Below are positions 13,971 to 18,399 of a stretch of DNA of 64,000 nt, one piece after another. This DNA is from Lachnospiraceae bacterium (GTDB lineage Bacteria > Bacillota > Clostridia > Lachnospirales > Lachnospiraceae), in NCBI GenBank assembly GCA_024403355.1, contig JAKSRW010000001.1:124001-188000 (forward strand), written 5' to 3'. The notes beneath the pieces are model-generated. The model saw nothing but the letters and a program-made list of their open reading frames with translations. It was not told the DNA's origin and ran no database searches. Positions within the stretch are counted from its first letter, which is position 1, and each line of letters begins with the position of its first letter. The position numbers and the translations under genes are program-made.

Positions 13971-14145
13971 ATATATAAAATAGAAAGATAACCCACTGCC
14001 TTTAGGCGGTGGGTGAAGCTTTCGCGAGGTGCGGGGTTCAAGCCCCGTACCTCGTAAGCTGCGGTAGCAGCGATTTTATAACGAGTGACAAGCGAAGCGG
14101 TCACGAGTTTGACTCATAATAATCCTAATGATAGGGGGAATTTAC
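13971..14145 (+). promoter_or_regulatory. Four-hairpin structured leader (leader family A)
   Basis: Four consecutive hairpins can be drawn: CCCACTGCC/GGCGGTGGG (13992-14013); CGAGGTGCGGGG/CCCCGTACCTCG with loop TTCAAG (about 14026-14056); GCTGC/GCAGC (about 14059-14072); and GTGAC/GTCAC enclosing GC-GAA-GC (about 14086-14105). The start (TAGAAAGATAACCC, GGCGGTGGGTGAAGC) is related to the leader of the minus-strand aminopeptidase near 38.72 kb. The segment CGGTCACGAGTTTG also occurs at 10402. Function is unknown; it could be a cis-regulatory RNA or a mobile-repeat remnant. Confidence 0.5.
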
Positions 14146-16587
14146 GTGAAAATATGCATAAAATGTAATAATCAGGTTGAGGATGAAGCTTTATTCTGCG
14201 ACTTGTGCGGTAATCGTTTCGAACCATTGGCAGCACCTGCAGAAGCAGTGACTGAACCAGTAGCTGCACCTGCAGAAGCAGTGGCTGAAGCTGCAGCAGA
14301 GGCGGCAGAGACTGTAGCCGAGCCTCAGACAGTTCCTGTTATTGAGGAACTGACGCCTGTTGCAGAGCAGCTTCCCGGGCAGATAGAAGCACCTGTAGCA
14401 GCTGTAGCGGAGGAAGTCATGATTCCTGCGACAGAGCCTGCAGCAGCCGAAAATCTACCTGCACGTGAATATCCTGCACAGCAGTATTACGACCCTAATC
14501 AGCAGGCACAGCAGTACTATGACCCTAATCAGCAGGCACAGCAGTATTACGATCCTAACCAGCAGGCGCAGCAGTATTACGACCCTAATCAGCAGGCACA
14601 GCAGTACTATGACCCTAATCAGCAGGCACAGCAGTATTACGATCCTAACCAGCAGGCGCAGCAGTACTATGACCCTAATCAGCAGGCGCAGCAGTACTAC
14701 GACCCTAATCAGCAGGCGCAGCAGTATTATGACCCTAATCAGCAGGCGCAGCAGTACTACGATCCGAATCAGCAGTTGCAGCCCGTTAAGAATAAGGGTG
14801 ATAAGAAGCCGTTCCCTGTTAAGTGGTTTATTATTGGCGGTGCAGGACTTGTTGTAGTTGCGGCAATAGTTATCTTCTGTATTCTTTTTATCGGCGGCGG
14901 GAAAAAGCCTCATGCGCTTTACATCAAGGACGGCGAGCTCCAATACAGCAACCTTAACCGGGAAACTCCTTTTGAGGTTACAAAGAGGCTTTCAAACTAC
15001 TATTCAAATAAGGACTTTGCCAATAGTACATACTCTTTAGCAAAATATATTCGTTTTACACCTGATAGCAAAGGCGTTTATTATATTGACAGTTCGGCTG
15101 ATTATTCGACAATACTGTATTATCGTGAGCTTAATAATGAAAGTTATGAACCCTTTAAGGTTGACAGCATAGATAGTTATGATTACGCATTAAGTGATGA
15201 CGGAAAAACAGTCACTTATATGAAGAACGGCGACCTCTATCAGAGAAAAGTTGGCGAGGATAGGGTAAAGATAGCTGCTAATGTCAGACGCTACAGGGTG
15301 ACTTCTGATGCTAAAAGCATTCTTTGGATTAATAATGATTATAAACTTACAATTAAACGCGGCGGAAGCGAGAATGAAAAACTTGATTCTGATGTAGACG
15401 ATATTAGCTATGTTAATGATGATTTATCTGTAATCTACTATAAAAAGAGCAGAATTCTTTACAGAAAAGCCGGAAGCAGCGAAAAGGAAAAGATTGCTTC
15501 AAATATTGGCAACATCTATAATATTTCCGAGAACTATGTCTACTATACAAAGTTAGTGGATTATAACACTGAAGTAAGCAGTTATATGGATCTTATAGAT
15601 GATGATATGGCTGACTATGATAAGAAATTCCGTGAGAATGAACCGGCATATCCTTACCGGGATGATCCGGACTACGAAAAAAACATGGATGCTTATAACC
15701 GTTATTGGGAAGAAGAGCGTGTTGTAGCTCAGCGTGGGTATATGCGTGATATTATCAGCAGCTACACTTACAGCCCTGCAGTGGATTTATATTATTATAA
15801 CGGTAAAGAATCTACTAAGATTTCGACAGATTTTCTGGATATACTGCAGCCTGTTTATGATGGTGACATGATGCTTATAACAGAACGTATCAGCACTGAG
15901 CGCATAAAATTGTCATCTATATTCGACAAATATTATAACGAGGCTGATAATAGGTTTGATCCAAACGAAGTAATCAATGAGCTTATAAAAAAATTCAACG
16001 ATAGCAGAAAGCCGGTTTACGTATCTGCTAATGAAAAGACGGTTATTGATTGCGGCGAGGAAGCCATAAATATTCGAATTTCTTCAGATGGGAAGAGCGT
16101 TTATTACGTGACCGATGTTGATTCGAAAAATATGGGTGTAATTAAAAAGGCTGATTTTTCAAAGGGTGTTGTTTCAAATGCCAGGGTAATCTGTGATGAC
16201 ATCAACAGTTCGATGGGATATTCATTTACAAATGAACTGGGACTTATTTACTTTACCGATGTAAATGATAGAAATGAGGGTACACTTTACCTGGATGAAA
16301 AGGAAATAGCGTCCGATGTTTATATTTATGAAACAATGGTTCAGAACGGATGCATCTATTTCAAGACAGACATCAGCTCAAATACAGGCTTCTTTTCACT
16401 GTCATGCTATGACGGAAAAGTAAATCCGATTGCAGATGATATTAAGGATTATTATGTTCTTGATGACGGTTCGGTTCTCTATCTTACAGATTACAGCAAC
16501 AAGAGCTACACAGGTGAGCTTTACAGATACGATGGCGGAAAGCCTGAAAAGATAGATACCGATGTAGTAGCTATCGTTCACAGATAA
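14146..16587 (+). CDS. Zinc-ribbon membrane protein with ten QQYYDPNQQA repeats
   Basis: An 813-residue protein. An N-terminal zinc ribbon (CIKC...CDLC, residues 3-22) is followed by an Ala/Glu/Pro-rich linker, ten tandem 10-residue repeats (about 112-211), a membrane helix (about 225-247), and a large extracytoplasmic domain of about 560 residues. That domain has repeated Tyr- and Asp-rich strands such as VYYIDSSADYS and VYYVTDVDSK, suggesting a beta-propeller-like fold. The topology puts the zinc ribbon and repeats in the cytoplasm. GTG 14146 is chosen because AGGGGGAA lies 5-12 nt upstream. Function is unknown; similar zinc-ribbon/propeller proteins are common in Lachnospiraceae. Confidence 0.85.
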   Translation: MKICIKCNNQVEDEALFCDLCGNRFEPLAAPAEAVTEPVAAPAEAVAEAAAEAAETVAEPQTVPVIEELTPVAEQLPGQIEAPVAAVAEEVMIPATEPAAAENLPAREYPAQQYYDPNQQAQQYYDPNQQAQQYYDPNQQAQQYYDPNQQAQQYYDPNQQAQQYYDPNQQAQQYYDPNQQAQQYYDPNQQAQQYYDPNQQAQQYYDPNQQLQPVKNKGDKKPFPVKWFIIGGAGLVVVAAIVIFCILFIGGGKKPHALYIKDGELQYSNLNRETPFEVTKRLSNYYSNKDFANSTYSLAKYIRFTPDSKGVYYIDSSADYSTILYYRELNNESYEPFKVDSIDSYDYALSDDGKTVTYMKNGDLYQRKVGEDRVKIAANVRRYRVTSDAKSILWINNDYKLTIKRGGSENEKLDSDVDDISYVNDDLSVIYYKKSRILYRKAGSSEKEKIASNIGNIYNISENYVYYTKLVDYNTEVSSYMDLIDDDMADYDKKFRENEPAYPYRDDPDYEKNMDAYNRYWEEERVVAQRGYMRDIISSYTYSPAVDLYYYNGKESTKISTDFLDILQPVYDGDMMLITERISTERIKLSSIFDKYYNEADNRFDPNEVINELIKKFNDSRKPVYVSANEKTVIDCGEEAINIRISSDGKSVYYVTDVDSKNMGVIKKADFSKGVVSNARVICDDINSSMGYSFTNELGLIYFTDVNDRNEGTLYLDEKEIASDVYIYETMVQNGCIYFKTDISSNTGFFSLSCYDGKVNPIADDIKDYYVLDDGSVLYLTDYSNKSYTGELYRYDGGKPEKIDTDVVAIVHR
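14479..14778 (+). repeat. Ten in-frame 30-bp tandem repeats
   Basis: Each unit encodes QQYYDPNQQA (last unit ends in L). Synonymous variants show a 90-bp higher-order period: units 1-3 carry the same codon pattern as units 4-6 (TATTAC-GACCCTAAT, TACTAT-GACCCTAAT, TATTAC-GATCCTAAC), indicating a recent block duplication. Confidence 0.97.
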
Positions 16588-16604: not shown

Positions 16605-16642
16605 AACCCGGACATCCTTTGGCGGTGTCCGGGTTTTCTTTA
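16605..16642 (+). terminator. Terminator after the zinc-ribbon gene
   Basis: AACCCGGACA/TGTCCGGGTT 10-bp stem with an 11-nt loop, followed by TTCTTT. Confidence 0.85.
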
Positions 16643-16693
16643 ATCTAAATTCAATTTTTAGTTGCCGAAAGAGAAAAATAGGTGTATCATAGT

Positions 16694-16745
16694 ATTAGAG
16701 GTACTTTTTGCTCTTGAGAAATTCAGAGGGTAAAAGCCTACTAGA
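16694..16745 (+). promoter_or_regulatory. Hairpin at the 5' end of the mgtE leader
   Basis: An extended imperfect hairpin: TAG-AGG-CTTTT-CTCT on the 5' side pairs with AGAG-AAAAG-CCT-CTA on the 3' side, around a GAAATT-containing loop. It precedes the leader ORF. It does not match the M-box core, so a different type of control is possible. Confidence 0.4.
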
Positions 16746-16766
16746 GACATGAGAGGTGGTGGTTTT

Positions 16767-16907
16767 ATGTGTACAGATAATTCGGACAGTTGCAGACGTA
16801 ATGACGAGAAGAAACTGAACGATGCACCCCCACGAAGGTGCCGCATAAAACAACTGAATAAGGAGGATCACCTTTATGTCCGAAAAAGAGAAAGAGGCTA
16901 TGTATGA
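16767..16907 (+). CDS. Candidate mgtE leader peptide, 46 residues
   Basis: The ORF starts with ATG after a GAGAGGTGGTGG site and ends with TGA 32 nt inside mgtE, in another frame, so translation of the two is overlapping. The product is Cys-, Asp- and Arg-rich (MCTDNSDSCRR...), with a central NDAPPRRCRIKQL. That order of acidic, Pro-Pro and Arg-Arg-x-Arg-x-Lys residues resembles enterobacterial MgtL, a leader peptide that senses low Mg2+ and controls mgtA; homology is not claimed. A GCACC/GGTGC hairpin (about 16823-16842) lies inside it, just before the mgtE ribosome-binding site. An in-frame ATG at 16749 is an alternative start. Confidence 0.5.
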   Translation: MCTDNSDSCRRNDEKKLNDAPPRRCRIKQLNKEDHLYVRKRERGYV

Positions 16908-18399
16908 AAATACAGAGCCTGAGTTTGATGTATCAGACAAGGTTATGACAGACAATCAGGCTGCGGATGAAGCAGGTGTCTCAGAGGAAATCCGTGTTTT
17001 GGAGGAGAGTACCGCAGAAATTGAAGAGAAGACACAGCTTGCAGAGGAGGATGGGGAAAGCGATCAGGTAATTCAGATGCGTGAATACATCGGGAACAAG
17101 TCCTTCAAGGAGTTCCGTCTTTTAGCACCTGAAATGAATGAGGCCGATGTGGCTTCACTGCTTGAGGAGCTTCCGGAAAATGAAATTTTCCCGTTCTTCA
17201 GAGTGCTTCCGAAGCATATTGCCGCAGACGTGTTTGCATATCTGCCTATTGACCTGCAGCAGAGTATGATTGTGCGATTCACGGAAGGCGAGGCGGCGAA
17301 CATCATCGATAACATGTATGTGGATGATGCTGCGGACCTTTTCGATGAAATGCCGGCAAATGTAGTTACCAGACTGCTTGCGAAAACCAGTCCCGAGACC
17401 AGAAGAACCATTAACCAGCTTCTGCAGTATCCCGACAGCTCTGCGGGCAGCCTTATGACAACAGAGTATGAGGCTTTGAAGCTTCATTTAACCGTTGCTG
17501 AGGCTATTGAAAAAATCAGAACAGACGGTATCGATAAGGAGACTATCAATATCTGCTATGTATTAGACAGAGACAGAAAGCTTTTGGGTACAGTTACCCT
17601 GAGGCAGATTCTGTTGAGCAAGCCGGATGCCGAAATCGGAAGTATCATGACGGAGAATGTTATTTCCGTAACAACCCTTACCGACCAGGAGGATGTTGCG
17701 CGAGATTTCCAGAAGTACGACTTCTCGGCTATGCCGGTTACTGACAGTGAGGGAAGACTTGTCGGTATTATCACAGTCGATGATATCGTGGATATTCTCC
17801 AGGAAGAGGCCACAGAGGATATCGAGAAGATGGCCGCTATCAGTCCTTCGGATATGCCTTATGTTAAGACAGGCGTTTTTGAAACCTGGAAAAAACGTAT
17901 TCCCTGGCTGCTTCTTTTGATGATTTCAGCGACCTTTACCGGTATGATTATCAGCCATTTTGAGGAAGCACTGAGTACATATATTGTACTTACTTCCTTT
18001 ATTCCCATGCTGATGGATACGGGCGGAAATGCCGGAAGTCAGGCATCTGTTTCGATTATCCGTGCGCTTTCACTCGGAGAGCTCGAATTCGCAGACCTGC
18101 CCAAAACGGTGTGGAAGGAAGCCAGAGTATCGTTATTAATCGGTGCTACACTGGCCGTAACAAATTTTGTTAAGCTTCTTCTGGTGGACCGGGTAGATGT
18201 AGCTGTTGCGGCGGTAGTATGTTTAACGCTTGTGGTAACTGTATTTGTTGCAAAGCTTGTGGGCTGTTCATTACCTATGATTGCCAAGAAAATCGGTTTT
18301 GACCCTGCGGTAATGGCGAGTCCGTTTATCACTACAATTGTTGATGCACTTTCACTGCTTATCTATTTTTCATTTGCACAGATGTTTCTCGGCATTTGA
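16876..18399 (+). CDS. mgtE: Magnesium transporter MgtE
   Basis: A 507-residue Mg2+ channel/transporter. It has an N-terminal acidic extension (1-65), an MgtE N domain (about 70-195, LLEELPENEIFPFF), and paired CBS domains (about 200-320) ending in VDDIVDILQEEATEDIEKMA. The five-helix membrane pore (about 345-507) carries the family motif DTGGNAGSQAS. In known MgtE, Mg2+ binding to the CBS and N domains closes the pore. AAGGAGG lies 9 nt before ATG. It is preceded by a structured leader and an overlapping leader ORF, which suggests translational or Mg2+-dependent control. Confidence 0.96.
   Translation: MSEKEKEAMYENTEPEFDVSDKVMTDNQAADEAGVSEEIRVLEESTAEIEEKTQLAEEDGESDQVIQMREYIGNKSFKEFRLLAPEMNEADVASLLEELPENEIFPFFRVLPKHIAADVFAYLPIDLQQSMIVRFTEGEAANIIDNMYVDDAADLFDEMPANVVTRLLAKTSPETRRTINQLLQYPDSSAGSLMTTEYEALKLHLTVAEAIEKIRTDGIDKETINICYVLDRDRKLLGTVTLRQILLSKPDAEIGSIMTENVISVTTLTDQEDVARDFQKYDFSAMPVTDSEGRLVGIITVDDIVDILQEEATEDIEKMAAISPSDMPYVKTGVFETWKKRIPWLLLLMISATFTGMIISHFEEALSTYIVLTSFIPMLMDTGGNAGSQASVSIIRALSLGELEFADLPKTVWKEARVSLLIGATLAVTNFVKLLLVDRVDVAVAAVVCLTLVVTVFVAKLVGCSLPMIAKKIGFDPAVMASPFITTIVDALSLLIYFSFAQMFLGI

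Follow-up and report, generated by a model that had tools for sequence, protein, structure and literature searches.

The gene mgtE, coding for a Mg2+ transporter, is preceded and partly overlapped by a short open reading frame in the DNA studied here, a stretch of 64,000 nucleotides from a Lachnospiraceae bacterium (the window). The question raised by this locus is whether the leader ORF (uORF) controls mgtE and, if so, which signal it reads. The initial annotation had described an ORF of 46 codons with a ribosome-binding site, ending inside mgtE, and had proposed it as a peptide-based Mg2+ sensor.

The mgtE Locus

The features from the terminator to mgtE lie on the + strand. The gene mgtE was located at positions 16876–18399, and its product shows MgtE_N, two CBS and MgtE domains in Pfam. 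An intrinsic terminator of the upstream gene, with a 12-bp stem followed by a T-rich tail (16605–16635), separates mgtE from that gene. The upstream gene itself (14128–16587) codes for a product of 819 aa that contains QQYYDPNQQA repeats in tandem and, at its N-terminus, a zinc-ribbon-like match under the cut-off. A probable sigma-70 type promoter of the mgtE leader, TTGCCG-17-TATCAT, was detected by consensus scan at 16662–16690; one match was obtained against 1.3 expected, weak by itself, and the assignment is supported by a TTG...-TATAAT-like sequence at the corresponding place in congeners.

The uORF extends from ATG 16767, a start common to relatives, to the end of its stop codon at 16907, and codes for the peptide MCTDNSDSCRRNDEKKLNDAPPRRCRIKQLNKEDHLYVRKRERGYV. 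It overlaps the start of mgtE by 32 nt in a different reading frame. The in-frame ATG at 16749 was rejected as start, being absent in relatives. The Shine-Dalgarno sequence (SD) of the uORF, AGGTGG (16754–16759), is kept in relatives, and that of mgtE, AAGGAGGA (16860–16867), is conserved.

Conservation of the Peptide

A DNA search with the leader gave a match before mgtE in nine congeners, spanning only 16749–16895. Over ten leaders the pN/pS ratio of the uORF frame was 0.37, decreasing to 0.25 in the core/closer set and to 0.21 without the variable linker, versus 1.55 and 1.40 when the other two frames are read. From this substitution pattern we infer that the uORF is translated, and on the same sequence evidence it is a coding sequence selected for its peptide. 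The ORF of the initial annotation is thus present, conserved in relatives upstream of mgtE and coding in its substitutions well beyond chance.

Two segments of the peptide stand out by their substitution pattern. The first, TDxSDSCRR (16773–16799), is conserved in the genus. The second is the acidic-proline motif D-A-P-P-R at codons 19–23 (16821–16835), which is DVPPR in congeners and D-x-P-x-P in the wider leader family; D19, P21 and P22 are invariant, with synonymous variation only, and the motif is proposed as candidate ribosome drop-off site. The resemblance of the surrounding NDAPPRRCRIK to the enterobacterial peptide MgtL, pointed out previously, becomes greater in relatives (DNPLPRSRRIKI, DIPLPRRS). 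Over the DSCRR codons (approximately 16785–16799) the nucleotides GACAGTTGCAGACG are invariant in the window and congeners, with no synonymous change, and GACAGTTGCAG from this region is seen again in a second mgtE leader type described below; an additional constraint at the nucleotide level is possible for these codons.

The initial annotation had also placed a hairpin on either side of the uORF. Both exist as base-pairing possibilities and neither is conserved, so that their importance was overrated: the 5' hairpin lies outside the conserved stretch 16749–16895, and the GCACC/GGTGC hairpin (16824–16841) loses its register in congeners. Both were rejected as functional parts. Two other features, a stem at the start codon and the conserved out-of-frame overlap, had been missed.

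Distribution of the Leader

Many leaders were found upstream of mgtE in genomes of the family, with the layout AAAGGTGGTGGTTTT(T)ATG, peptide core, IKIT and mgtE SD, and with cores such as DNPLPGRS, DVPLPGRS, DIPPHERS, DVPGPDP and DSAPGRS. A covariance model (R1) was built from 28 leaders and searched over 397 Lachnospiraceae genomes. The best 30 matches with loci, with E values up to 1.2e-4, all stand directly before mgtE (30/30), including three from genomes outside model training (L133, L145 and L156). Outside the Lachnospiraceae R1 gave weak matches (E >= 0.001), none of them beside mgtE, and the covariance search over 398 genomes of the phylum gave no further convincing match. An independent scan of genome contigs used only the 5' arm of the start-codon stem, as a pattern of 19 bases; among the 80 matches listed, 69 have mgtE next, three more carry the leader at contig or locus ends and eight are unrelated.

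Among the hosts are Butyrivibrio hungatei, Parablautia and Kineothrix alysoides, together with many MAGs from rumen and gut. Several congeners (L010–L016) have an mgtE without leader; in L010–L012 and L014–L016 MgtE is shorter and a near-invariant promoter-like block, CCTTTATTTAATTTTA-GTTGAA, is located upstream. In the literature covered, with subscription papers and preprints outside the scope, no leader peptides before mgtE in Firmicutes are reported.

The Acidic-Proline Motif

The pattern [DE].?P.?P is present in 38 of 52 dereplicated leader peptides, compared with a mean of 2.3 and a maximum of 7 after shuffling of residues. Among control N-termini from the leader loci it was found in 5/200 genes and in 0/28 other small ORFs. 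The strict motif is missing in 14 of the 52 peptides; an acidic residue lies at most three positions from a proline in 47 of them. The acidic residue of the motif is at codons 2–20, mainly 9–13. The end of the motif is mostly 8–12 nt before the 3' arm of the start-codon stem, so a ribosome placed at the motif would just touch this arm.

The prolines are conserved as much as the acidic residue, with IPPH or VPPR in many leaders, and EF-P and proline affect MgtL and MgtP (PMC6460261). Such data would also be expected if the uORF were a peptide-based attenuator of another signal, either prolyl-tRNA, the EF-P/ABC-F capacity (stalling at PP or D-P) or translation health, with mgtE controlled indirectly. 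This explanation is unlikely, since many leaders lack Pro-Pro (DNPLPGRS, DSAPGRS), an acidic residue with a spaced proline is shared by them, and the gene downstream codes in every case for a Mg2+ transporter.

Out-of-Frame Overlap with mgtE

The uORF is open past the mgtE start in 48 of 51 dereplicated leaders, versus 1/50 for the third reading frame. The frames +1 and +2 relative to mgtE are used equally (25:25), and the overlap is 16–50 nt in nearly all leaders; the exceptions without overlap are L027, L046 and L047. Because either frame is used and the overlap varies within this range, what is kept appears to be the crossing of the mgtE start by translation, and not one peptide end. Since its C-terminus is read in either frame and is not conserved, the uORF product probably has no function as a protein. 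Rather than Rho-dependent termination, the overlap suggests an output at the level of translation. One leader, L050 (identical to L158), is in frame with mgtE (MKQTIVQSGSDIPLPRRS...), so that its motif would extend the transporter at the N-terminus.

An overlap by itself is expected to reduce downstream initiation, and its frequency would agree with a constitutive brake, in which the uORF just sets a low level of mgtE and senses nothing. A brake needs neither a conserved acidic-proline motif nor a covarying start-codon stem, and mgtE is usually regulated by Mg2+, as an M-box is located here in other Lachnospiraceae; it is therefore considered improbable.

The Start-Codon Stem

The uORF SD and start codon form a covarying stem of 10–12 bp (P1) with a segment inside the uORF. 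In the window, the 5' arm (16759–16769) takes in the ATG together with the last part of the uORF SD, the 3' arm (16844–16854) is part of the uORF and immediately precedes the mgtE SD, and the core pairs GTTTTATG (16762–16769) with CATAAAAC (16844–16851). Pairing was found in 93.6% of cells in 88 aligned leaders, with two-sided changes at 6/11 pairs, in an alignment that was fitted to the P1 structure and is biased toward it. These values were reached by 0/500 shuffles, and pairing drops to 41–73% when the partner is shifted. Where the start codon is GTG or TTG, or the U-run is altered, the 3' arm is changed to match.

A helix of at least 10 bp is present at the start in 44/52 leaders versus 4/185 ordinary gene starts. 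Partition functions gave P1 a median pairing probability of 0.98 and the uORF start region an unpaired probability of 0.08; that of the mgtE SD was approximately 0.5 in free RNA. RNAalifold returned no consensus pair for the gappy 88-row alignment, and P1 consequently rests on targeted pair counts with controls and on single-sequence folds. The energy of P1 was better than that of shuffles (p<=0.05) in just 7/42 single leaders.

Being the best conserved RNA feature of the leader, P1 might respond to Mg2+ directly, in the manner of a riboswitch, with the ORF incidental. This is very improbable in view of the coding substitution pattern of the uORF, of a loop whose length and sequence are free to vary outside the coding constraint, and of P1 being a simple helix; moreover, a stem stabilised by Mg2+ would shut the uORF and increase mgtE when Mg2+ is high, opposite to what an importer requires. 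The least credible explanation is a real small protein gene or a translational coupling in which uORF translation promotes mgtE initiation: termination shortly after a downstream start is able to couple genes, but in almost every leader the stop comes 16–50 nt after the mgtE start, and in none does it fall within the coupling range of 1–4 nt, the mgtE SD is not covered by P1, and the C-terminus is not conserved, with both frames equally used.

Proposed Regulation of mgtE

The leader is proposed to be a cis-acting peptide-based Mg2+ sensor controlling mgtE at translation, a reading to which a probability of about two in three is assigned. The sequence data support the selection on the peptide, the motif, the overlap, the stem and the fixed link to mgtE, and with them the sensor suggested in the initial annotation; we infer the translation, the drop-off, the Mg2+ dependence and the direction of the response. 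The uORF would be translated from its own ribosome-binding site (RBS), its SD and start codon being able to pair, as indicated by covariation, with the segment located approximately 50–80 nt downstream, beside the mgtE SD. A ribosome that completes the uORF must pass over the 3' arm of P1 and then over both the SD and the start of mgtE, given that 48 of 51 uORFs end beyond this start. At adequate Mg2+ this crossing would keep P1 open, so that the next ribosome loads on the uORF and mgtE initiation is blocked. At low Mg2+, ribosomes with a short nascent chain would fall off at the acidic-proline motif and so not reach the 3' arm; P1 would then re-form, uORF initiation would be shut and the free mgtE RBS would allow the transporter to be made.

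The drop-off step is modelled on MgtL, in which ribosome drop-off at EPDP at low Mg2+ increases mgtA expression (PMC11282234), and on intrinsic ribosome destabilization. Ribosomes of B. subtilis are stalled by Asp-Pro stretches (PMC11381351).

As a tentative extension, the uORF start codon, held shut by part of the uORF coding sequence, could form a self-locking bistable switch, in which each finishing ribosome would license the next, and each drop-off at low Mg2+ would lock the uORF and hand the mRNA to mgtE; the design of an acidic uORF with a start-codon stem before mgtE may recur in other families of the order.

Other mgtE Leaders

Additional leader types were observed before mgtE. The second type (L087, L090, L097, L099, L103, L106 and L107) begins with MDA/TD(S)C... 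followed by VPI or VPL, as in the Lachnospiraceae peptide MDADSCSG..VPI, and is located approximately 170–270 nt upstream of mgtE, followed by strong hairpins; in two genomes with this type (G202 and G285) an M-box is also present, further upstream. The third type (L110, L112, L114, L117, L122, L124, L125 and L030) has the arrangement GTGAACACATA-ATG-GAAGGTCGAAGTCG (MEGRSRKMEADAHPEPEA...), with a start region that is the complement of CCATTATGTGT, located further along the ORF; CTCCAT, ahead of mgtE, is a possible anti-SD.

Outside the Lachnospiraceae but within the order, uORFs with an acidic start (MDASPLPEEP, MDSSPAPSF and MDNGESYAAEPVPL) precede mgtE in L027, L322, L324, L326, L329 and L331, with a long helix at the start codon; MDLDEVP is a further peptide from these families, and most of the uORFs have a start-codon helix. 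Uncultured Bacilli (L197, L213, L230, L232 and L246) carry a conserved hydrophobic ORF of 25 residues (MTKREISQFIIILLLFLVVIILLLK), with the same RBS sequence, GAAAGGTGGTGGTTTT.

Comparison with Known Systems

In other Lachnospiraceae, the position of the leader ahead of mgtE is taken by the M-box (RF00380). No M-box above the gathering score was found in the window or in this genome, and the window gave no Rfam match at the gathering threshold and chance matches alone at a relaxed threshold; the absence of an M-box noted in the initial annotation was thereby confirmed, and no known Mg2+ riboswitch speaks against the peptide. An M-box was detected in 31/299 Lachnospiraceae genomes, in 17 of these 31 within approximately 1 kb before an mgtE, and on comparison by hand the present leader occurs at none of those 17 loci. 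The M-box and the leader look like alternative solutions, a pattern that clade structure could also give.

The mgtE motif, a riboswitch candidate (SRC-65-1, PMC11109978), is likewise a candidate regulator before mgtE. It differs in being restricted to Thioalkalivibrio and in consisting of a multi-stem RNA in which the SD and start of mgtE are contained, and it is not described as an ORF.

In the literature found, Mg2+ sensing by nascent-peptide ribosome destabilization is limited to a few enterobacterial leaders. CorL, the leader ORF of corA in E. coli and Salmonella (PMC11552253), shares with the regulation proposed for the present leader a uORF translation inverse to transporter expression and a response to intracellular Mg2+, but it acts by Rho-dependent termination, has fewer acidic and proline residues and belongs to Enterobacteria. 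MgtQ is an 8-codon ORF before mgtB in Salmonella, whose acidic codons lower its own translation and raise that of mgtB (PMC8092293). It resembles the mechanism proposed for the leader in this effect, exerted through alternative RNA stems, and in its control at the level of translation; it differs in releasing a sequestered mgtB RBS, in lying between two genes, in needing no proline motif and in not overlapping the target start codon.

MgtL, the leader peptide of mgtA in E. coli K-12 (NC_000913.3, 4467431–4467484) and Salmonella, is also encoded by a short ORF before a Mg2+ importer gene, with acidic residues and alternating prolines, and a string like PLPR-x-RR-[IL]-K-[IL] is common to it and to some of the leaders studied here, too short for a claim of homology or common descent. 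In E. coli, the mgtL SD base-pairs with the last part of the mgtL ORF (ACCGGA/TCCGGT), in the same topology as P1; in the present leaders, unlike MgtL, the start codon itself is within the stem. MgtL has 17 codons, does not overlap mgtA, acts by Rho-dependent termination and controls a P-type ATPase in Enterobacteria, whereas the present leaders have approximately 30–50 codons, overlap mgtE out of frame and are found in Lachnospiraceae.

If the proposed regulation is correct, this form of sensing would be widespread, in the place that M-boxes hold in other Lachnospiraceae; its origin or spread would probably have been separate from that of the PhoP-controlled genes of enterobacteria, and it could act by out-of-frame overlap instead of Rho. 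The dozens of natural leader variants could be used to establish which residues and which spacings cause ribosome drop-off when Mg2+ is low. By analogy, the design would work like those of the enterobacterial MgtL and MgtQ, in a new gene, a new clade and a new layout.
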